Assembly (NCBI RefSeq): GCF_028692895.1
Contig: NZ_JAQUWN010000001.1
Coordinates: 37,144-101,143 of the forward strand
Reading direction: 5' to 3'
Source: Pseudodesulfovibrio sp.
GTDB lineage: Bacteria > Desulfobacterota > Desulfovibrionia > Desulfovibrionales > Desulfovibrionaceae
Length of the DNA stretch: 64,000 bases
A program made the translations under genes and the position numbers. Each line of letters starts with the position of its first letter. Within the stretch, counting starts at the first letter, position 1. This document shows positions 51,120-61,992 of this stretch, piece by piece. The notes under the pieces are model-generated. The model was not told the origin of the DNA. It saw only the letters and a list, made by a program, of their open reading frames with translations, and did not search any database.

Positions 51120-52103
51120 TCATGCCCCGGCCGGTTCGGCCTCCCGCTCCGGGCCGAAGATACGGGGCGTGAAACGCACGTACCAGGCCGCCGACTGGAC
51201 CTGGACGATGTAGGCCATGGCGATGACCAGGGCCGCGTCGGACCCGTGCGCGCCAAAGGCGTTGATGGCGATGGCCAGGGCGATGGACAGGTTGCGCATC
51301 ACCGAGCCGTAGACCAGGGCGATGGCGTCGCCGCGCGGCAGGAGCAGCCTGCCCGTCACCGTGCTGAGCAGGTAGTTCATGCCGTAGAGCAACAGCAGCG
51401 GAACCAGGATGTCCAGCAGCACCTCGGGTGCGGCCGCGATGGTCCGGGCCTTGAGCGCCAGGGCCACGAAAACGATGCCCAGCACGCCCAACGTCGAGAG
51501 CGGCGGGAACCGGGGCCCGATGTATTTCTGGAAATCCGCCTGCCCGTACTTCCTCACCAGCAGCCGCTGGGTCGCGTAGCCCAGCGCCATGGGCAAAAAG
51601 ACGATGAACAGAATCTGCCTGAACACCGCCGCCAGGTTGATCTCGATGGTCGCGCCCAAGAGCGCCTTGACGTAAAACGGCGTGGCCAGCGAGCCGATGA
51701 CCAGGCCGATGACCGTCATCTTCACCGCCGCCGACATGTTGCCCCTGGCGAACCCGGTCCACGAGATGGTCATGCCGCTGGTGGGCACCAGCCCGGCCAG
51801 CAACAGCCCCAGCGCCATGTACGGCCGGTCCGCAAAGAACGCCATGCCCGCCCCCAGCGCCAAAAACGGGATCACCCCGAAGTTGATGAGCTGCGTCAGG
51901 ACCTGGGCCTTGCCGTCCCCGCCCTCGAAAACCTTGCGCACCTTGAGCGTCACCATCATCGGATACACCATCAGAAAGGTGAACGGCACGATCAGATGCT
52001 TGAGCCATGCCGCGTTCGCCAGGAATCCATAGGCAAAGCCCGCCGCCATCATCACCGGGATGGCGACAATCAGGTTGGACGATATTTTTCGCAAAATGTT
52101 CAT
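51120..52103 (-). CDS. ACR3/BASS-like arsenic-resistance-type permease
   Basis: A 327-residue inner-membrane protein with about ten helices. VPTSGMTISWTGFARGN, PMALGYATQRLLVRKYG and GSVMRNLSIALAIAINAFG resemble the ACR3/bile-acid-symporter superfamily; the last includes the crossover segment. The catalytic Cys of ACR3 (helix 4) is not evident, so arsenite export is not assured. It lies 21 bp after the zinc-ribbon gene, in one operon facing an FNR-like box. Confidence 0.75.
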   Translation of the reverse strand: MNILRKISSNLIVAIPVMMAAGFAYGFLANAAWLKHLIVPFTFLMVYPMMVTLKVRKVFEGGDGKAQVLTQLINFGVIPFLALGAGMAFFADRPYMALGLLLAGLVPTSGMTISWTGFARGNMSAAVKMTVIGLVIGSLATPFYVKALLGATIEINLAAVFRQILFIVFLPMALGYATQRLLVRKYGQADFQKYIGPRFPPLSTLGVLGIVFVALALKARTIAAAPEVLLDILVPLLLLYGMNYLLSTVTGRLLLPRGDAIALVYGSVMRNLSIALAIAINAFGAHGSDAALVIAMAYIVQVQSAAWYVRFTPRIFGPEREAEPAGA

Positions 52104-52124
52104 GGCATTCCTCCCCGGACGCGG

Positions 52125-52346
52125 CTACTCGTTGCCCGACGCGCCCATCTCGGTGGCGCGGCACTCCGGGTCGGAACAGCAGGGCGCTTCCCCGTCGCGA
52201 TACACGACCACCCCGCTTTCCACCGGCTCGACGATGAACCGCCTGGAACAATCCGCGCAATTGACGTAAAAGGGCCGGAAGTCGCCGTGGGTATCCACGG
52301 CCTGACCAGTGGAACAATACGGGCAGTGTACGTTGACGCTCGACAT
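52125..52346 (-). CDS. Small zinc-ribbon protein
   Basis: A 73-residue protein. HCPYCSTGQAVDTHGDF and VNCADCSRRFIVEP give a C-x2-C...C-x2-C zinc ribbon, and CCSDPEC follows near the end (three more Cys). AAAGGAGG precedes the ATG at 52346. It heads the operon with the ACR3-like permease and is divergent from the Crp/Fnr gene at 52448, with the FNR-like box between them. Confidence 0.75.
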   Translation of the reverse strand: MSSVNVHCPYCSTGQAVDTHGDFRPFYVNCADCSRRFIVEPVESGVVVYRDGEAPCCSDPECRATEMGASGNE

Positions 52347-52399: not shown

Positions 52400-52413
52400 T
52401 TGATCTCGATCAA
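52400..52413. promoter_or_regulatory. FNR-type box
   Basis: TTGAT-CTCG-ATCAA is a perfect palindrome fitting the FNR consensus TTGAT-N4-ATCAA. It is centred 42 bp before the Crp/Fnr start at 52448 and 61 bp from the start of the zinc-ribbon gene on the other strand, so it could control both directions. Confidence 0.75.
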
Positions 52414-52447
52414 CAGGGCCCCGTTTTTTCAAAACAAGCGAGACGGC

Positions 52448-53107
52448 ATGGACAAGACCACCCTGCGGGACGCAATCCGCGACTTCCCCCTTTTCGCCTC
52501 CCTGAATCCGGCACAGCTCGACCGGCTGGCCGAACACGCCACCGTCACCCGCATCGCCAAAAAGGCCCTTTTCTTCTCCGAAGATCACGCCGCCCGAGGA
52601 CTGCACGTCCTCCTCTCCGGAAAGGTCAAACTCTTCAAGGTCTCCGAAGAAGGCAGGGAACAGACCATCTTCGTCTTCGGCCCCGGCGAACCCTTCTGCC
52701 TCTGCTCCTCCTTCTCCGACGGCCGGCTGCCCGCCAACCTCTCCGCCCTCGAAGACAGCCAGATCCTCTTCGTCCACCCCGCACAGTTCGAATCCATGGT
52801 CCGCGAAGACCCCTCCATCCTGCTCAACATGATGCGCGTCATGGCCCGACGCCTCAAAGAAGCCATGGACATGATCGACTCCCTCTCCCTCAAGCAGATC
52901 CCCTCCCGACTGGCCGCCTACTTCCTCGGCCGACACACGGGCGGCACCGTCACCCTCGACATCTCCCACCGCGAGCTCGCCAAGATCATCGGCGTCACTC
53001 CCGAAGCCCTGTCCCGGGCCCTGCGCAAAATGAACGAAGACGGCGTCCTCGAAGTCGATGGCAACATGGTGCGCATCCTCGATGAAAAGGGGCTGGCCGC
53101 CTATTGA
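52448..53107 (+). CDS. Crp/Fnr-family transcriptional regulator (first of a pair)
   Basis: A 219-residue regulator. The cNMP-type sensor domain (about 12-120) includes LHVLLSGKVKLFKVSEEG and GEPFCLCSSFSDGRLPANLS. A dimer helix and a winged HTH follow (ISHRELAKIIGVTPEALSRAL, about 170-195). There is no N-terminal Cys cluster like that of E. coli FNR, so an iron-sulfur sensor is not indicated; heme or another ligand is possible. It converges on a paralogue (46 bp apart) and has a perfect FNR box upstream, consistent with autoregulation. Confidence 0.9.
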   Translation: MDKTTLRDAIRDFPLFASLNPAQLDRLAEHATVTRIAKKALFFSEDHAARGLHVLLSGKVKLFKVSEEGREQTIFVFGPGEPFCLCSSFSDGRLPANLSALEDSQILFVHPAQFESMVREDPSILLNMMRVMARRLKEAMDMIDSLSLKQIPSRLAAYFLGRHTGGTVTLDISHRELAKIIGVTPEALSRALRKMNEDGVLEVDGNMVRILDEKGLAAY

Positions 53108-53153
53108 GGCGGAAGAAGGGGGGAAGGAAGGAAGAATGCCTCCCGCGCCCCGC

Positions 53154-53825
53154 CTAATCCACGCGCAGCATTCCGTCGCGGTCGAGGATGCGGATGGTGC
53201 GGCCGGAGGATTCGAGGAGGCGGTCTTTTTTGAGTTTTTGGAGGGTACGGGAGAGGGTTTCGGGTGTAGTGCCGAGGATTTTGGCCATTTCGCGGTGGGA
53301 GATGGAGAGGGTGAAGGGTTGGCCGGGTGGGGAGGGGGCGGCGTGTTCCTCGTGCAGGAGGAAGGAAGCGACGCGTTGGGGGATGCAGCGCAGGGAGAGG
53401 GATTCCACGAGGTTCATGGCTTCGAGGAGTCGTCCGGCGAGGGTCTGCATGATCTTGAGCATGAGCAGGGGGTGTTGTTGGGCGAGGTCTTCCATGGCCG
53501 GGGCCGGGATATCGGCGACGATGCTCTCCTCCAGGGCGGTGACGCTGACGGGGTAGGGCTTGTCGGTGAAGGCCGTGCAGAAGCAGAAGGGTTGTCCGGC
53601 CTCGATGAGGTAGAGGATTTGTTCCTTGCCTTCGGAGTTGGAGCGGAAGATTTTCACGCGGCCGGAGAGGATGATGTAGAAGGCCTGGATGGAATCGGAC
53701 TGGTTGACGATGCGTTGATCGGTTTCGAAGGCGCGGATGCGGGCGCGCACGGCCAGGGCGCGCACGGCGTCGTCGTCGAGGTCGGCGAAGAGGGGGATCT
53801 GGCGCAGCAATTTGAAGTTGTCCAT
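53154..53825 (-). CDS. Crp/Fnr-family transcriptional regulator (second of a pair)
   Basis: A 223-residue paralogue of the preceding regulator. The sensor domain has FYIILSGRVKIFRSNSEG and GQPFCFCTAFTDKPYPVSVT, and the HTH is ISHREMAKILGTTPETLSRTL. The FCxC motif after the second beta-roll strand is shared with the first regulator, and classical N-terminal cluster Cys residues are absent. ATG at 53825. It is divergent from the redox operon, and the shared 111-bp spacer holds an FNR-like box, so it probably regulates that operon. Confidence 0.9.
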   Translation of the reverse strand: MDNFKLLRQIPLFADLDDDAVRALAVRARIRAFETDQRIVNQSDSIQAFYIILSGRVKIFRSNSEGKEQILYLIEAGQPFCFCTAFTDKPYPVSVTALEESIVADIPAPAMEDLAQQHPLLMLKIMQTLAGRLLEAMNLVESLSLRCIPQRVASFLLHEEHAAPSPPGQPFTLSISHREMAKILGTTPETLSRTLQKLKKDRLLESSGRTIRILDRDGMLRVD

Positions 53826-53846
53826 GGGCAAGAAGTTTCACAAAAA

Positions 53847-53860
53847 TTGACGGCCATCAA
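53847..53860. promoter_or_regulatory. FNR-like box before the redox operon
   Basis: TTGAC-GGCC-ATCAA matches TTGAT-N4-ATCAA with one mismatch. It lies between the second Crp/Fnr gene and the iron-sulfur subunit gene, about 84 bp before the latter's start. Confidence 0.55.
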
Positions 53861-53936
53861 TGCGGCGTTTTCGTTTTTCTTTTAGGCTTGATGCGAAAAT
53901 GGCATGTAAGCGCCTGATAATTCAGGAGGAGGAAAA

Positions 53937-54851
53937 ATGACAGTATCACGCCGAACTTTTTTGGGTGCGCTGGGGGCTGCGGGGGCGGCCGCGGTCGCGC
54001 CGGGGAATGCGGAGGCCTGGGAATCCAAGGCTCCGCCCGATCCCTACGGGTGCCTGGTGGATATGACCCGTTGCGTGGGGTGCCGCAAGTGCGAGCAGGC
54101 CTGCAACGAGGTGAATCATTTGCCCGAGCCGGAGGCGAGGTTTGACGACCTGACGGTTCTGGACGGCAAGCGTCGGCCGGACGACAAGGCGTTCACTGTG
54201 GTGAACCGCTATTATCCCGGCAAGATGGATGACCGCGACAGACCGGTGCCGGTCTATGTGAAGGTGCAGTGCATGCACTGCCAGGACCCGGCGTGCGCGT
54301 CGGCCTGCATCACCGGGGCGTTGACCAAGAAGGCGAACGGGGCGGTGCATTACGACGTGAACAAGTGCATCGGCTGCCGGTATTGCATGGCCGCGTGTCC
54401 GTTCGAGATCCCGGCTTACGAGTATCACGACCCGATCACGCCGAGGGTGCGCAAGTGCACGTTCTGTTTCGAGCGCATCGAGAAGGAGGGCGGCAAGCCC
54501 GGGTGCGCGTCCATCTGTCCGGTGGAGGCGATCACCTTCGGCAGGCGTTCGGAGCTGGTGAAGCAGGCGCACGAGCGGATCGGGGGCAACCCGTCGCGGT
54601 ATGTGGATCATGTGTACGGCGAGCGCGAGGTGGGCGGCACGAGCTGGATGTACGTATCCGGCGTGCCGTTTGAGCGCGCGGGGTTCCAGACGTTGCCCGA
54701 GGCGCCCATGCCGAAGGCCACGGAGACGATCCAGCATTCGCTGTTCAGCTATTTGTGGTCGCCGCTGGTCCTGTTCGGGGCCCTGGGGGCGGTCATGCGC
54801 GTCACCTCCCGCAAGGGCGGGGAAGGCGAGGAGGGCGGACATGAGTCATAA
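53937..54851 (+). CDS. Tat-exported 16-Cys iron-sulfur subunit (HybA-type)
   Basis: A 304-residue periplasm-facing electron-transfer subunit. The Tat signal [13 protein letters not shown] is followed by four Cys quartets for four [4Fe-4S] clusters: [35 protein letters not shown] and CTFC...GCASIC. A C-terminal helix ([15 protein letters not shown]) anchors it. An AGGAGGAGG site precedes the ATG. It overlaps the membrane subunit by 11 bp. In related complexes such a subunit passes electrons between a quinone-interacting membrane protein and a periplasmic cytochrome. Confidence 0.93.
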
Positions 54852-56004
54852 GCCGTATCCCGTGGCGCGTCCCTTCTGGACGCCCGGCACGCTGGTCATG
54901 GCGGCGCTGATGTTCGCCATGTTCGTGACCCTGGTTTTCCGCTACACCTTCGGGCTCGGCGCGGTGACCAACCTGAACAACCATTATCCGTGGGGCATCT
55001 GGATCGGCCTGGACGTGGCCTCGGGCGTCGCCCTGGCCGCGGGCGGGTTCACCACGGCGTTTCTGGCCCACATCATGGGCCGCCGCTATTACGAGGCCGT
55101 GACCCGGCCCGCGCTGCTCTCGGCGGCGCTGGGCTACACCTTTGTGGCCCTGGCCGTGTGTTTCGACATCGGCCGGTCCTGGGCCATCTGGAAGCCGGTG
55201 GTCTACCAGAACCACAATTCCGCGCTGTTCGAGGTGGCCATGTGCGTCATGACCTACGTGACGGTGCTGTGGATCGAGTTCATCCCGGTGCTGGCCGAGC
55301 GATGGGGGAGCCGTTTCGCGCCCCTGGCCATTTTGAACCGGATGCTGGACAAAACCATGTGGTTCTTCATCATCCTCGGGGTGGTGCTCTCCTGCATGCA
55401 CCAGTCGAGCCTGGGCACGCTGCTGGTCATCGCGCCCACCAAGATGTCGCCGCTGTGGTACACGCAGCTTTTGCCGCTGCTGTTCCTGACCTCGGCCTTC
55501 GCGGTCGGTTATCCCATGGTCATCGTGGAGACGACCATCGCCACCAGCTCGCTGAAGCTGGAGTCCGAGATGAACGTGCTGGCCCCGCTCTCCCGGATCA
55601 CGATCCTGCTGCTGGGCGTGTACATGGCCATCAAGGTCGGCGACCTGGTCTATCGCGACGCGTGGCGGACGCTGCTGGACGGCTCGGCCCAGTCAAACAG
55701 TTTCCTGACCGAGGTCGGGCTGGGCGTGGCCCTGCCGTGGTGCATGCTGCTCTTCAGGGCGGTGCGCGCGTCGCGGCGGTTGTTGTTCACGGCCTCGCTG
55801 CTGATCGTGTCGGGCGTGCTGCTCAACCGGTTCAACGTGTTCGTGGTCTCGTTCAAGGCGCCTTACGCCACCGAGCCGTACTATCCGGCCATCGGCGAAA
55901 TCCTGGTCACCGTGGGCGCCGTGGCGACCATCTTCTTCCTGTACCGGGTCGCGGTGACGTGGTTCCCGGTCCTTTCCGCCCAACGTGAGGAGGTGTCCCG
56001 ATGA
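54841..56004 (+). CDS. NrfD/HybB-type quinone-interacting membrane subunit
   Basis: A 387-residue protein with about ten helices. [49 protein letters not shown] and [18 protein letters not shown] are typical of the HybB/NrfD group that oxidises or reduces menaquinone at the membrane. It overlaps the gene on each side (11 bp and 4 bp), so the three are made stoichiometrically. It provides the quinone site for the iron-sulfur and multiheme subunits. Confidence 0.93.
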
Positions 56005-58211
56005 AGAGCAATACGCTGGGATGGCTCGCGTTTGCGGCCGTTGTGGTCCTTGGCCTGGCCGTGCTGGCCCCGGCCGCCACGACGCCGGCTCCGGCAACCA
56101 CGGCTCCGGCCCAGACCGCCTCGGCTTCCGCTCCGGCGGCGAAGGCTGCGGACAAGCCCGTGGAGAAGTCGCGCAAGGACCTGATCCCCATGCCCGAGGG
56201 CTGGACCGCGCCGGACCAGGTCAAGGCCATGGAACTGGCGCGCAAGCAATACCCCTACGTCAAGGACGTGCTGCGGGAGGACCTGCCGCTTCGGCAGCAG
56301 CGGCTGCGGAACCTGGGCGTCGGGCTCAAGGACCTCAAGCACGGCTACCTGCTGCTGGACAGCCCGATGGTGGACACCTTCGGGTCCAAGTACGGGCCCG
56401 TGCGCTTCATGCACGCCAAGCACGCGGCCGTGCTGGACGGCGACTGCGCGGCCTGCCACCACTACCGCCCGGCCGATCCCGAGGCCTCGGAGACCGTGGC
56501 CTGCCGCGCTTGCCATCAGGAGGCGTTCGCCGAGCGGGAGCAGGGGCGCGTGGGCCTCAAGGCGGCCTACCACCTCCAGTGCATGAACTGCCACGAGCGG
56601 ATGAAGAAGGGCCCGGTGAGCTGCGAGGGCTGCCACGGCAAGATGCCCGTGGACCACAAGGACCTGGTCAAGCTGCCGGACAACCCCACCCCGCAGCAGG
56701 TGACGAAGGAATGCCTGCGCTGCCACGAGGACGCGGGCCAGGACATGCTGACCTCGGCCCACTGGCTGTGGCGCGGCCCGTCGCCGTTCACCGTGGAGCA
56801 CCGCAGGAGCGTCATGTCCGGCAAGGGCACGACCACGCTGAACAACTTCTGCCTTTCGGCCATCAGCAACCTGTCGCGCTGCACCTCCTGCCACGCGGGA
56901 TACGGGTGGAAGGACGACACCTTCGACTTCACCAGGACCGAGAACATGGACTGCCTGGTCTGCCACGACTCCACGGGCAGCTACAGGAAGGCCCCGCCCA
57001 AGGCGGGCATGCCCGATCCCGGGGTGGACATGGTCTACGTGGCGCAAAACGTGGGGCCCACGAGCCGCAAGACCTGCGGCGTGTGCCACTTCAGCGGCGG
57101 CGGCGGCGACGCGGTCAAGCATGCGGACATGAGCGCGCAACTCAACTGGCCGGACCGCAACTGCGACGTGCACATGGGCGGCTACGACTTCCAGTGCGTG
57201 GAATGCCACAAGACCCGCAACCACAAGATATCGGGCCGGTCCACCTCCGTGCCCGTGGCCGAGGGGTCCCGCTCCTGCGAGGACTGCCATACCTCGAAGC
57301 CGCATCACGACAACCCCCTGCTTGATCCCCACCTGAACAAGCACTGCGCCACCGTGGCCTGCAACACCTGCCACTCGCCCATCTACTCCAAGTGCGCCGC
57401 CACCAAGACGTGGTGGGACTGGTCCACGGCGGGCGACAAGCAGCGCCAGGTCCACAAGGACAAATACGGCAAGCCCGACTACAACTGGATGAAGGGCGAC
57501 TTCCGCTGGAAGGAGGCGGCCAAGCCCTCCTACGCCTGGTACAACGGGTTCATGGAGCGCCGCCTGCTGGGCGATCCCATCAACCCCGAGGCCAAGGGCT
57601 TCCTGCCCGGCGAGAAGCTCACGCCCGGGCAGAAGGCGGCCATGGTGGTGACCAACATCACCGAGCCCGTGGGCTCCATCCGCGACCCGCACTCCAAGAT
57701 CACGCCGTTCAAGATCATGGCCGGCATCCAGCCCGCGGACGCCAAGTACCGCTATCTGCTGGTGCCGCACCTCTTCCCCTACGGCAAGGACGACAAGTCC
57801 GCCTACTGGAAGAACCTGGACTGGCAGGCGGCCTTCAAGGAGGGGATGGAAAAGGCGAAGCTGCCGTATAGCGGAGAGTACATGTGGGTGGCCACGCACA
57901 TGTACTGGCGCATCGAGCACGAGGTCATGCCCAGGGAGCACGCGCTCTCCTGCGCGCAGTGCCACGAGAGCCTGAAGGGCGACCGGACCTGCGACCGCTG
58001 CCATCAGGACGGGCGCGACGCCAAGTTCCGGGTCCTGGCCGAACAGGGCGCGGACTTCGGGCTGCTCAAGGTCATGGGCCGCGACGTGGACGAGCTGATC
58101 GGCGTCACGGACTACCTCGACTTCAAGAAGCTCGGCTATGAGGGCGATCCCGTCGTCCGGGGCGGCCGGTTCAAGGTCCTGCCCCTTCGCGGCGAGGCGT
58201 CCTCCCGCTGA
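56001..58211 (+). CDS. Thirteen-heme cytochrome c: c3-like domain fused to octaheme tetrathionate-reductase-like domain
   Basis: A 736-residue exported protein (N-terminal helix, then an Ala/Pro linker) with thirteen CxxCH sites. The first four (about residues 149-215: CAACH, CRACH, CMNCH, CEGCH), with preceding FMHAKH, look like a tetraheme c3 domain. From CLRCH (about 238) the sequence follows the octaheme tetrathionate reductase family: SAHWLWRG, SAISNLSRCTSCHAGYGW, NMDCLVCHDSTG, CGVCH, CVECH, CEDCH, CNTCH and CAQCH (about 651), ending KKLGYEGDP. An added heme CDRCH (about 664) sits in an insert. It is the probable catalytic or terminal periplasmic component; the substrate is unproven. Confidence 0.88.
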   Translation: MKSNTLGWLAFAAVVVLGLAVLAPAATTPAPATTAPAQTASASAPAAKAADKPVEKSRKDLIPMPEGWTAPDQVKAMELARKQYPYVKDVLREDLPLRQQRLRNLGVGLKDLKHGYLLLDSPMVDTFGSKYGPVRFMHAKHAAVLDGDCAACHHYRPADPEASETVACRACHQEAFAEREQGRVGLKAAYHLQCMNCHERMKKGPVSCEGCHGKMPVDHKDLVKLPDNPTPQQVTKECLRCHEDAGQDMLTSAHWLWRGPSPFTVEHRRSVMSGKGTTTLNNFCLSAISNLSRCTSCHAGYGWKDDTFDFTRTENMDCLVCHDSTGSYRKAPPKAGMPDPGVDMVYVAQNVGPTSRKTCGVCHFSGGGGDAVKHADMSAQLNWPDRNCDVHMGGYDFQCVECHKTRNHKISGRSTSVPVAEGSRSCEDCHTSKPHHDNPLLDPHLNKHCATVACNTCHSPIYSKCAATKTWWDWSTAGDKQRQVHKDKYGKPDYNWMKGDFRWKEAAKPSYAWYNGFMERRLLGDPINPEAKGFLPGEKLTPGQKAAMVVTNITEPVGSIRDPHSKITPFKIMAGIQPADAKYRYLLVPHLFPYGKDDKSAYWKNLDWQAAFKEGMEKAKLPYSGEYMWVATHMYWRIEHEVMPREHALSCAQCHESLKGDRTCDRCHQDGRDAKFRVLAEQGADFGLLKVMGRDVDELIGVTDYLDFKKLGYEGDPVVRGGRFKVLPLRGEASSR

Positions 58212-58268: not shown

Positions 58269-58504
58269 CGTGTTCGGCGGAATTAATGTGAAAATAGGAT
58301 TGTTGACAGTGAAGACCAGATAGTGCAGTTGCTTATATGAGCAGGTATCACGATCGTGGAGACGTAGTGAGCGAAGTGCGCCTGCGCGGAAGGTCATTGG
58401 GGGGAAGATCGGCCAAGGACGAATTGAGGCCCGGCACGGAGGCATTTCGCCGGGGGGAGCTTTCGGACCAAGGCTCCTGCACGATTAGGATTCAGGCGGG
58501 AAAG

Positions 58505-60934
58505 ATGAAATCTTTGCAAAGTATGTCCAGGGAGGAACTGGTCAGCGAGCTCGAGATGTACCGGGAACGCGTCGGCGAGTGCGACGGCCGGTACGAACTC
58601 GCCATCGAGGCCTCCAACGACGGGGTGTGGGAATGGGATGTCCGCACCGACGAAGCCCGTTATTCCCCGCGCAATTTCACCATGATCGGTCACGCCCCGG
58701 AGGAATTCGAACCCCGCGCCGAGGCCTGGAAATCCCTGATCCACCCGGACGACCTGGAGCGTGCCCTGGACATGGTGCGCGCCCATCTGGAACGCGGCGA
58801 ACCGTTCAATATCAAGTACCGCGTGCGCGACGGCAAGGGCGAATGGCGCTGGATACTCTCCCGGGGCCGCATCGTCGAGCGCGACGCCGAGGAAAAGCCC
58901 GTCAGGCTGGTCGGCACGCACGTGGACATCCACGAGCAGGTGCTCCTGTCCGAGCGGCTGCGGACCAGGAACGAGGAGCTCACGGTCCTGAACCACCTCG
59001 GCCGGGCCGTTGCCGCGAGCCTCTCCATGGAGGCCACGGTGGACGCGGCCCTGGACAACCTCCGGCGCATCGTCGAGTGCGACCTGGTGCAGCTCTTCAC
59101 CCTGGAGGGCGAGTCCATCGTCAACATGGGGTTGCGCTCCAGCATCCCGCTGGCCCCGGCATTCCACGAGATGCGGTCCGACCTGGGGGAGAGCCTTTGC
59201 GGCCTGGCCGTCAAGACCCGCTCCCCGGTCTTCTCGCGCGAGCGGGACGCGGACCGCAGCTACCTGCGCAGCGAGTGGCGCGAGGCCGGCATCCGCTCCC
59301 ACGCGGCCATTCCCCTGGTGGCGGGCGAGGAGGTCCTTGGGGTCATCGGCGTCGGCTCCCGCGAGGACCGGGAATACGCCGAGAGCGAATCCTTCCTCTG
59401 CTCGGTGGCCTCTGTGGTGGCCACGGGACTGGCCAACGCCCGGCTGCATCAGCGGGTCCGGCGCCACTCCGAAGAGCTGGAGGCCCAGGTGGAGGAGCGG
59501 ACCCGCGAGTTGGCCAAGCTCTCCAACGCCATCGAGCGCGCCTCCATCTCCATCATGATTACGGACGTGAACGGCGCGATCGAGTACGTGAACCCGTATT
59601 TCTCCAACCTCACCGGCTACCTGCGCGGCGAGGTGCTGGGCAGGAATCCCCGGATTCTCAAGTCCGGCAGGCACGGCGTCAATTTCTACCGGGGCATGTG
59701 GCAGCGGCTGCTGCGGGGCAAGATCTGGCGCGGCGAGATCTGCAACCGGCGCAAGGACGGGTCCGAGTACTGGGAGCGGGCGTCCATCTCGCCGCTGCTC
59801 GACGCCGAGGGCAACCCCACCCATTTCGTGGCCGTGACCGAGGACGTGACCCAGCGCCGCAAGCGCGAGCAGGAGCTGCTCGTCCTGTCCAAGGCCATCA
59901 AGAACGCCTCCTCGTCGGTCATCGTCACCGACAAGGACGGCGACATCATCTACGTCAATCCGAGCTTCACCCAGCTCACGGGCTATTCCTACGAGGACGC
60001 CGTGGGCCGTAACCCGCGCATCCTCAAGTCCGGGCTGCATGAGCCCGTCTTCTACGCGGAGCTGTGGAAGACCATCGCCGGGGGCATGTCCTGGTCCGGC
60101 GAGATCCTCAACCGGCGCAAGGACGGCACCCGGTTCTGGATGGCCGCCCGCATCTCGCCGGTCTACGACCGGCACGGCGAGATCACCCACTATGTCGGCG
60201 TGCAGAACGACATCACCGAGAAGAAGGAGCTGGAGCAGCTCAAGGGGGACGTGGACCGGATCATGCGCCACGACCTCAAGACGCCGCTCAACGCCATCAT
60301 CGGCTTCCCCGTCCTCATCGAGATGGAGGGCAACCTGACCGAGGACCAGTTGGAGCTTACCCGGGCCATCACCCGCGCGGCCCGGAAGATGCTGCGCCTG
60401 ATCGACCTCTCCCTGGACTTCTTCAAGATGGAGACCGGCCAGTACGAATACTATCCCCGCAGGGTGGACCTGGCCGCCTGCCTGCTGGAGCTGATGGTGG
60501 AGTTCCAGTCCAAGCTCAGCGCCAAGCGGCAGCGGCTGATCGTGACCTTTGACGGCGAACCCGTGCGCGAGGACCAGACCTACTGGATCCAGTCCGAGGA
60601 CAGCCTGATCTACTCCCTGCTCTCCAACCTGCTCTCCAACGCCATCGAGGCCTCGCCTCCGGGCGGGGACATCTCCGTCAAGGTTGACTGCGCCGACGGA
60701 TGTCATATATCCATCCGCAACACCGGCGTGGTGCCCCCTCCCATCCGCAAGAGCTTCTTCCAGAAATACAAGACCTACGGCAAGAAGTCGGGCACCGGCC
60801 TGGGAACCTATTCCGCCAAGATGCTGGCCGACGCCATGGGCTACTCCGTGCGCATGGAGACATCGGACGCGGAGAACGCCACGGTCCTCCACGTCGTCAT
60901 CCCCAGCGACAGTTGCGTCGGTCCGGAGAAATGA
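58505..60934 (+). CDS. Cytoplasmic PAS-GAF-PAS-PAS sensor histidine kinase
   Basis: An 809-residue kinase without membrane segments. A first PAS/PAC (about 30-150, ASNDGVWEWDVRTDEARYSP) is followed by a GAF domain (about 160-320). Two near-duplicate PAS/PAC modules come next (about 340-455 and 465-580; both contain GRNPRILKSG and RRKDG). HisKA has IMRHDLKTPLNAIIG (His about 589) and the ATPase NLLSNAIEA and GTGLGTYSAK. The ATG at 58505 has GGCGGGA upstream; an ATG at 58337 would add 56 residues without similarity. The stop overlaps the following response regulator by 4 bp, making them a two-component pair. Confidence 0.92.
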   Translation: MKSLQSMSREELVSELEMYRERVGECDGRYELAIEASNDGVWEWDVRTDEARYSPRNFTMIGHAPEEFEPRAEAWKSLIHPDDLERALDMVRAHLERGEPFNIKYRVRDGKGEWRWILSRGRIVERDAEEKPVRLVGTHVDIHEQVLLSERLRTRNEELTVLNHLGRAVAASLSMEATVDAALDNLRRIVECDLVQLFTLEGESIVNMGLRSSIPLAPAFHEMRSDLGESLCGLAVKTRSPVFSRERDADRSYLRSEWREAGIRSHAAIPLVAGEEVLGVIGVGSREDREYAESESFLCSVASVVATGLANARLHQRVRRHSEELEAQVEERTRELAKLSNAIERASISIMITDVNGAIEYVNPYFSNLTGYLRGEVLGRNPRILKSGRHGVNFYRGMWQRLLRGKIWRGEICNRRKDGSEYWERASISPLLDAEGNPTHFVAVTEDVTQRRKREQELLVLSKAIKNASSSVIVTDKDGDIIYVNPSFTQLTGYSYEDAVGRNPRILKSGLHEPVFYAELWKTIAGGMSWSGEILNRRKDGTRFWMAARISPVYDRHGEITHYVGVQNDITEKKELEQLKGDVDRIMRHDLKTPLNAIIGFPVLIEMEGNLTEDQLELTRAITRAARKMLRLIDLSLDFFKMETGQYEYYPRRVDLAACLLELMVEFQSKLSAKRQRLIVTFDGEPVREDQTYWIQSEDSLIYSLLSNLLSNAIEASPPGGDISVKVDCADGCHISIRNTGVVPPPIRKSFFQKYKTYGKKSGTGLGTYSAKMLADAMGYSVRMETSDAENATVLHVVIPSDSCVGPEK

Positions 60935-61992
60935 TGAGCGATCCAGCCAAGATACTGATTGTCGACGACGAGCCGTATAACCTCCTGCTGCTGAAGCGCC
61001 ACCTGAACCTCATGGGCCACGAGGTTATCAGCGCGGAGAACGCGGTCCTCGCCCTTGAGATGCTCGACCGGACCATCGACCTGGTCCTCTCGGACGTGAT
61101 GATGCCCGAGATGGACGGCTTCGAGTTCGTCCGGGCCATCCGGCGAAACGCCGAGACCCAGAACATCCCCGTGATAATGGTCACTACCCTTTCCGAGAAA
61201 AACGACCGCCTGCGGGCCGTGGAGGCCGGGGCCAACGACTTCATCACCAAGCCCGTGGACGCCCTGGAGCTCCAGGTGCGCGTCGGCTCCATGCTCCGGC
61301 TCAAGGCCAAGCAGGACGAAATCCTGCGCTTCGAGTCCGAGCTGAACCAGATGGTGGAGCAGCGGACCCAGGAGCTGCGCCTGGCCCTCAAGCGGATGAA
61401 GAAGTCCCACCAGGACACCATCGTCTACCTGGCCGCCGCGGCCGAGTACAAGGACGAGGAGACCGGGGCGCACATCCAGCGCATGAGCAATTACTGTGCG
61501 GTCATCGCCCAGGGCCTCGGGCTGGACGATGACGAGGTGGAGCTCCTCCTCAAGAGCAGCCCCATGCACGATCTCGGCAAGATCGGCATCCCGGACCACA
61601 TCCTGCTCAAGCCCGGCAAGCTCGACCCGGACGAGTGGGAGATCATGAAGACCCACACCGAGATCGGCGCGGAAATCCTGGGCGCGGGCGACTCCGACTA
61701 CGTGAACATGGGCGCGATCATCGCCCTGTGCCACCACGAGAAGTGGGACGGCACCGGCTATCCCTCGGGCCTTAGCGGGGAGGACATTCCCCTGGCGGGC
61801 CGCATTTGCGCCGTGGCCGACGTCTTCGACGCCCTGACCAGCAAGCGGCCGTACAAGGAGGCCTTCTCCGTGGAGAAGTCCCTGGGCATCATGGCCGAGG
61901 GCCGGGGCACCCATTTCGACCCCGCCGTCTACGACGTGTTCCTGAAGCGCCTGGACGAGATCCTGGCGATCCGGAGCCAGTACTCGGACTGA
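60931..61992 (+). CDS. Response regulator with HD-GYP phosphodiesterase output
   Basis: A 353-residue protein. The receiver (ILIVDDEPYNLLLLKRHLNL, Asp55 in LVLSDVMMPE, FITKPVD Lys) is followed by a coiled-coil linker and the HD-GYP domain: SPMHDLGKIGIPDHILLKPG, LCHHEKWDGTGYPSGLSG and DVFDALTSKRPYKEAF. Signature residues are intact, so phosphorylation by the coupled kinase probably controls c-di-GMP breakdown. It starts at the first of two consecutive ATGs, inside the kinase stop. Confidence 0.94.
   Translation: MMSDPAKILIVDDEPYNLLLLKRHLNLMGHEVISAENAVLALEMLDRTIDLVLSDVMMPEMDGFEFVRAIRRNAETQNIPVIMVTTLSEKNDRLRAVEAGANDFITKPVDALELQVRVGSMLRLKAKQDEILRFESELNQMVEQRTQELRLALKRMKKSHQDTIVYLAAAAEYKDEETGAHIQRMSNYCAVIAQGLGLDDDEVELLLKSSPMHDLGKIGIPDHILLKPGKLDPDEWEIMKTHTEIGAEILGAGDSDYVNMGAIIALCHHEKWDGTGYPSGLSGEDIPLAGRICAVADVFDALTSKRPYKEAFSVEKSLGIMAEGRGTHFDPAVYDVFLKRLDEILAIRSQYSD

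Follow-up and report, generated by a model that had tools for sequence, protein, structure and literature searches.

The octaheme tetrathionate reductase (OTR) of Shewanella oneidensis (SO4144, PDB 1SP3, family TIGR04315) is a 443-residue chain that has neither a cytochrome c3 domain nor a thirteenth heme, and which we take to be soluble and without a dedicated quinone module. HmcA of the Desulfovibrio Hmc complex (HmcA/B/C) carries 16 hemes and no octaheme reductase domain; the Qrc menaquinone reductase combines an NrfD-type subunit, a four-cluster protein and a multiheme cytochrome, presumably without an octaheme domain; and OhcA we assume to be a c3-type octaheme cytochrome rather than an OTR. 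The Ohc and Nhc complexes of sulfate reducers, covered in 2011 by Pereira and colleagues, are reportedly laid out as a cytochrome with an HmcB-like and an NrfD-like subunit. The parts of PMC4911364 and PMC11024163 that deal with Shewanella OTR describe reduction of tetrathionate and, in vitro, of nitrite and hydroxylamine, and a passage on Thermosulfurimonas proposes that Otr is linked to the membrane through a neighbouring cytochrome b subunit (PMC4911364). Here we describe a three-gene locus within a 64,000-nt stretch of Pseudodesulfovibrio sp. DNA (the window; NZ_JAQUWN010000001.1, positions 37,144-101,143), in which an OTR domain is fused to a c3 domain and accompanied by an iron-sulfur (Fe-S) subunit and an NrfD-type membrane subunit. 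A cysteine of the OTR domain, Cys284, is exchanged in many relatives for a TGA codon that is well predicted, from the sequences around it, to be read as selenocysteine (Sec).

The Fe-S, NrfD-type and cytochrome genes overlap successively by their open reading frame coordinates, giving them one operon layout, and a convergent pair of Crp/Fnr-family regulators precedes them; both the reading frames and their overlaps agree with a preliminary description of this DNA. The parts of the operon, in window positions, are:

53937-54851, + strand, Fe-S subunit, 304 aa, HmcB/HybA-like and predicted to be periplasmic (open reading frame list, profiles, hydropathy)
54841-56004, + strand, NrfD/HybB/HmcC-type membrane subunit, 387 aa (PF03916; profiles, hydropathy)
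56001-58211, + strand, 13-heme cytochrome, 736 aa, with a signal or anchor helix (residues 5-23), a c3 domain, an OTR domain and a C-terminal insert with heme 13
56385-56636, + strand, class III cytochrome c3 domain, residues 129-212, hemes 1-4
56652-57971, + strand, OTR domain, residues 218-657, hemes 5-12 (OTR hemes 1-8)
56850-56852, + strand, Cys284 codon (TGC), aligned with Cys64 of 1SP3
56866-56882, + strand, site of the hairpin found in TGA-containing relatives, here without an intact stem, though GCAAC, the opening bases of the 5' arm, is present
57117-57119, + strand, Lys373 codon, aligned with Lys153 of 1SP3
57990-58004, + strand, heme 13 (CDRCH), within an insert that follows OTR heme 8 and precedes the conserved C-terminal motif LGYxGDP

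The 13 CxxCH motifs of the 736-residue cytochrome, as counted in the preliminary description, lie at residues 149, 168, 194, 208, 238, 294, 318, 359, 399, 426, 454, 651 and 664. Residues 218-657 score 484.3 bits on TIGR04315, above the curated cut-off of 375, which is the match to the octaheme family that had been expected from about residue 230 onwards. Eight heme motifs lie in register with those of OTR, and a predicted model of the cytochrome superposes on 1SP3 over residues 216-725, so that alignment and fold both place the domain in the OTR family and the octaheme core proposed earlier is seen in the model as well. Residues 129-212 hold four CxxCH motifs in one domain and score 48.4 bits on PF02085 (cut-off 22.9), identifying a class III cytochrome c3, so that the earlier suggestion of a c3-like domain fused to an octaheme domain is borne out; among curated models, the last c3 domain of HmcA and TmcA come closest to it. 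Lys373 aligns with Lys153 of 1SP3 (numbered on the alignment) and is a lysine in 158 of 158 OTR sequences, an alignment that includes the window, contains 153 distinct sequences and was built from loci selected for matching well rather than by random choice. In OTR this lysine is a ligand of the catalytic second heme, according to the portion of PMC11024163 that treats it. In a column count, heme columns 4 and 8 read 0/44, which we put down to gaps inside those motifs and did not use.

Cys284, the cysteine of an NNFC motif and by alignment the counterpart of Cys64 in 1SP3, lies ten residues ahead of the heme 6 CxxCH, heme 6 corresponding to OTR heme 2. Among the 153 distinct OTR cores the codon in this column is TGC in 77, TGT in 39, TGA in 36 and ACT in one, and none has a further in-frame stop between hemes 5 and 12. 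TGA occupies the same position in 12 of 22 further fused relatives, giving 48 of 175 sequences overall, and it breaks the reading frame at this point in seven genome loci. In 395 genomes sampled evenly from the phylum, which yielded 78 matches above the family cut-off by our own row count, 30 of the 78 contain exactly one TGA and none contains TAA or TAG; the weaker matches listed add two with TGA and one with TAG. Within the window's genus, five full-length relatives read through with Cys and six carry a single TGA, at 75-81% identity to the window protein. The exchange could not have been seen in the preliminary description, which was made from the window's sequence alone. Stand-alone eight-heme OTR loci of the phylum (such as L105, L112 and L131) also have TGA at this Cys position, and three database proteins of 424-425 aa (P0103, P0105 and P0108) start about 30 residues after the site; judged from their start points, these are probably gene calls shortened by unrecognised TGA Sec codons.

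Downstream of the TGA codons lies a hairpin of the selenocysteine insertion sequence (SECIS) type, in one of two forms. The first, CUGGUGC-AGGU-GCACCAG with its loop 24 nt downstream, is present in 29 of the 48 TGA sequences, and the second, GCAACGA-GGC-UCGUUGC with its loop 20 nt downstream, in the other 19. Under a criterion set after both types had been seen (an uninterrupted stem of at least 7 bp and a loop of 3-6 nt with G in its first two bases, starting 14-37 nt past the codon), a hairpin was found in 48/48 TGA forms versus 2/126 Cys forms. The best-hairpin energy was likewise lower, at -15.0 kcal/mol for 36 TGA forms versus -7.0 kcal/mol for 116 Cys forms (p 1e-10, Mann-Whitney test, kinship ignored). 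Because of this near-complete association and the lower hairpin energies, the TGA at the Cys284 position is well predicted to encode Sec. No covariation was seen within one stem type (five sequences), and the case for the SECIS is one of presence versus absence together with two unlike stem types. The window itself has a TGC codon and no intact stem, and is in this respect a Cys form. An extra Cys eight residues past the TGA occurs in 29/36 TGA forms versus 0/117 others; although it looked like a resolving Cys, we do not claim it as one, because its codon is part of the SECIS stem.

According to the passages on it in a May 2026 review (PMC13188914), a family named 'Tetrathionate reductase family octaheme c-type cytochrome, TIGR04315' is among the selenoprotein families annotated in GenBank, with one Sec per protein; the TGA forms described here belong to that family. 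The word 'octaheme' appears once in the review's main text, and those passages give no motif or function for the family. Relative to that listing, our analysis places the site at OTR Cys64, includes the c3-fused form, and finds the window itself to be a Cys form. We found no paper on the 13-heme c3-OTR layout or on a Sec site in OTR, in a search that took in little of the subscription literature.

At least six changes between Sec and Cys are required on a wide tree (FastTree), and six on a tree of the fused proteins. On a more careful tree of the genus the Cys forms lie inside the Sec forms, with moderate branch support. Within the genus, one conversion from Sec to Cys is enough to account for the Cys forms, as a topology test did not reject a single Cys clade (p-AU 0.48); a single Sec clade was not rejected either (p 0.16). 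The sequence AGCAAC, with which the 5' arm of the SECIS begins, is kept in all six Cys genes of the genus, window included; since it is also found in a distant Cys form (L124), it speaks only weakly for a Sec ancestor. The genus pattern suggests that the window's Cys form arose from a Sec form in this lineage.

The two other subunits resemble those of known quinone-linked modules. The Fe-S subunit has a Tat-type twin-arginine N-terminus (SRRTFL), one C-terminal hydrophobic helix (residues 269-287, by hydropathy) and 17 Cys, 16 of which fall, by our grouping, into four 4Fe-4S cluster motifs; the 16 Cys previously ascribed to it hold for the clusters and fall one short of the total. It scores 63.6 bits on PF13247, 357.3 on HmcB (cut-off 420) and 255.8 on HybA (cut-off 263). 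The NrfD-type subunit scores 72.4 bits on PF03916, above the cut-off of 25.8, which places it in the NrfD family; it reaches 332.6 on the HybB-type model PRK10881 (cut-off 450) and 273.6 on HmcC (cut-off 550), shows nine hydrophobic segments by simple hydropathy, and is predicted to carry the quinone site. As all the HmcB/HmcC and HybA/HybB cut-offs are missed, the two subunits are Hmc- and Hyb-like without belonging to either the Hmc complex or the hydrogenase-2 module. The cytochrome, for all the likeness of its c3 domain to the last one of HmcA, scores 59 bits on HmcA (cut-off 400). Similarity to Qrc lies in the shared kinds of subunit, with QrcD at 119.7 (cut-off 570) and QrcC at 61.1 (cut-off 400) lying far below cut-off for the window proteins.

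The layout is widespread. Exactly 13 CxxCH motifs are present in 110 of the best 120 of 1578 cytochrome homologues, six of the remaining ten being shorter than 600 residues, and most of the best 120 that carry a name from their source are called octaheme cytochromes. We therefore rejected the idea of a fusion confined to this genome. The earlier impression of an undescribed arrangement is not supported as worded, the 13-heme layout being common in sequence databases even though we found no paper on it. By our count, 12 of 30 genomes of the window's genus, the window's included, encode the full-length cytochrome. In 42 fused loci examined for their neighbours (two of the stretches, L223 and L224, being cut short), the Fe-S, NrfD and cytochrome genes occur together in 35, so the gene order recurs among relatives. 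Of the other seven, L224 is ended by its contig end and six lack a separate NrfD match; in the two of these six that were tested, L117 (2339-5647, - strand) and L121 (4616-7900, + strand), NrfD and a multiheme cytochrome are encoded together in a single frame of about 1,100 aa. A third relative, P0035, likewise holds NrfD, c3 and OTR on a single chain. The recurrent order and these single-chain fusions support one complex.

Candidate control elements lie between and before the following genes:

52448-53107, + strand, first Crp/Fnr-family regulator (Crp/Fnr-1), converging with Crp/Fnr-2
53154-53825, - strand, second Crp/Fnr-family regulator (Crp/Fnr-2), converging with Crp/Fnr-1 and recurring beside the operon
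53847-53860, FNR-type box TTGACGGCCATCAA, 90 bp before the start of the Fe-S gene
52400-52413, FNR-type box TTGATCTCGATCAA, upstream of both Crp/Fnr-1 and the divergently oriented genes at 52346 and 52103

FNR-like palindromes had been placed at both outer promoters; both are real, and the one at 53847 belongs to the divergent promoter that separates Crp/Fnr-2 from the operon rather than to an outer one. The pattern TTGAYNNNNRTCAA has six sites in the 3.69-Mb genome, about chance level (five for the reversed pattern), two of them within this 1.5-kb stretch; beside the other four, inspection by eye recognised no related neighbour gene, and no library search of their open reading frames was made. 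In 15 of the 42 fused loci a TTGAYNNNNRTCAA match stands just upstream of the Fe-S gene, at a distance of 84-91 bp in the ten with a readable start. A Crp/Fnr-2 homologue lies divergently beside the operon in 11 of 42 loci, and Crp/Fnr-1 is the best match in none. Control by one or both regulators, as first supposed, thus narrows to Crp/Fnr-2; Crp/Fnr-1 is probably local to this genome, because it was not found beside the operon in relatives. FNR-type DNA recognition goes with an E..SR arrangement in the recognition helix; Crp/Fnr-2 has such a helix (TPETLSR), which together with the TTGAT-N4-ATCAA boxes points to FNR-type recognition. Neither regulator has a Cys in its first 40 residues, and they score 54 and 76 bits on NF008365 (cut-off 228); lacking the N-terminal Cys cluster, Crp/Fnr-2 is not an FNR (4Fe-4S) oxygen sensor. 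In its effector-binding roll Crp/Fnr-2 has a CFC motif; this stretch reads PFCFC in 27 and PFGMC in 79 of the 120 homologues listed. By this distribution PFCFC is the mark of the close clade and PFGMC that of more distant homologues, and the difference is possibly a change in thiol or ligand sensing.

Taken together, the operon is best read as a menaquinol-linked respiratory reductase that would use thiol or selenol catalysis on a sulfur oxyanion or a substrate with an S-S bond and would be activated by Crp/Fnr-2, a reading to which we give about an even chance. Electrons would pass from menaquinol through the NrfD-type subunit, the four Fe-S clusters and the c3 hemes into the octaheme chain and on to the Lys-ligated heme. 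The catalytic site is likely to comprise the second OTR heme, Lys373 and Cys284, and the exchange of Cys284 with TGA likely marks the residue that does the chemistry. Its thiol, or the selenol in relatives, may attack a sulfur oxyanion, for example tetrathionate, at an S-S or S-O bond, and the resulting adduct would then be reduced through the heme. Activation by Crp/Fnr-2 probably acts through the box that lies 90 bp before the Fe-S gene. More tentatively, as a proposal somewhat more apt to fail than to hold, a Cys thiolate or Sec beside a Lys-ligated c-heme would cleave S-S or similar bonds throughout the OTR family, and sulfate reducers would link this selenol-heme centre to the quinone pool through the fused c3 domain. 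Cys and Sec forms at 75-81% identity offer a natural comparison that points at the chemistry. Were Sec confirmed, it would stand at a heme active site, making a heme catalyst with an active-site Sec, and its fused version with the link to quinone would illustrate the way in which sulfate reducers supply an enzyme of this kind.

Several observations weigh against this reading, some of a general kind and others that favour particular alternatives. In the fused relative L129 the Cys/Sec position, kept elsewhere, is Thr (ACT); a nearby Asp column is not invariant (127/158); and the Sec-to-Cys polarity has moderate branch support of 82-94. Without any part played by quinone, electrons could also reach the c3 domain from periplasmic cytochrome c3. 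Cys64 presumably sits at the catalytic heme in the OTR fold. A SelB match below 1e-100 occurs in 27 of the 29 TGA genomes of the phylum search, the exceptions (G082 and G394) being fragmented assemblies; as 353 of the 395 genomes have SelB over the cut-off, its presence does not discriminate.

The main rival, which we consider unlikely, keeps the same complex and makes its physiological substrate a nitrogen species, nitrite or hydroxylamine, in respiration or detoxification in place of NrfA. The in vitro activity of octaheme OTR on both compounds (in the portion of PMC4911364 concerned), that of octaheme cytochromes on nitrite, and a proposal that Otr reduces nitrite in bacteria without NrfA (both from parts of PMC5276818) speak for it. 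No NrfA-family match was found in the window's genome, which is compatible with nitrogen substrates, and among the 12 fusion carriers of the genus only G466 has a strong one; the pattern is weak, however, as NrfA is scarce without the fusion as well (strong match in 4 of 18 genus members), and a Cys/Sec exchange would be unusual for nitrite chemistry at a heme.

Less probable still is an Hmc- or Qrc-like conduit, in which the c3 domain would take electrons of periplasmic hydrogenase or formate dehydrogenase via cytochrome c3 to quinone, or carry them in reverse, with the octaheme part as a wire. The resemblance to HmcB/HmcC and HybA/HybB is consistent with this, and the OTR relative MmcA is described as a pure conduit in the relevant part of PMC11024163. 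By the same account, however, MmcA has neither the second heme motif nor the Lys, whereas here both are kept along with the Cys/TGA site. We regard it as quite improbable that the enzyme oxidises a reduced sulfur compound and passes the electrons on to menaquinone: NrfD-type complexes run either way, and some OTR loci come, by their record titles, from known sulfur-oxidiser lineages (e.g. the Solemya symbiont, Thiomargarita and Sedimenticola), but the FNR-type box would suggest anaerobic control and OTR is known as a reductase. Finally, that the TGA codons are sequencing errors or pseudogenes is hardly credible even with many relatives being metagenome assemblies, given that only TGA occurs, at one column and with no other in-frame stop in 153 cores, that the hairpin is intact in 48/48, that single-contig genomes (G609 and G574) are among the carriers, and that the family is listed as a GenBank-annotated selenoprotein in the passages of PMC13188914 on it.

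Around the operon, an SBF-family permease (weak ACR3 similarity, below cut-off) and a small protein with a weak Zn-ribbon match, together at 51120-52346 on the - strand, diverge from Crp/Fnr-1 across a perfect FNR-type box. Both, with Crp/Fnr-1, were rejected as conserved members of the module, since over the stretches covered each was the best match in 0 of the 42 loci. PADLOC matches of the two regulators were read as cNMP-domain similarity. In one genome (L009/L124) the Fe-S gene has an in-frame TAA at a cluster Cys position, a sequencing error or decay. Downstream of the cytochrome, a PAS/GAF histidine kinase is followed by an HD-domain response regulator (58337-61992, + strand), and the kinase has matches, of low identity, in 6 of the 42 fused loci.

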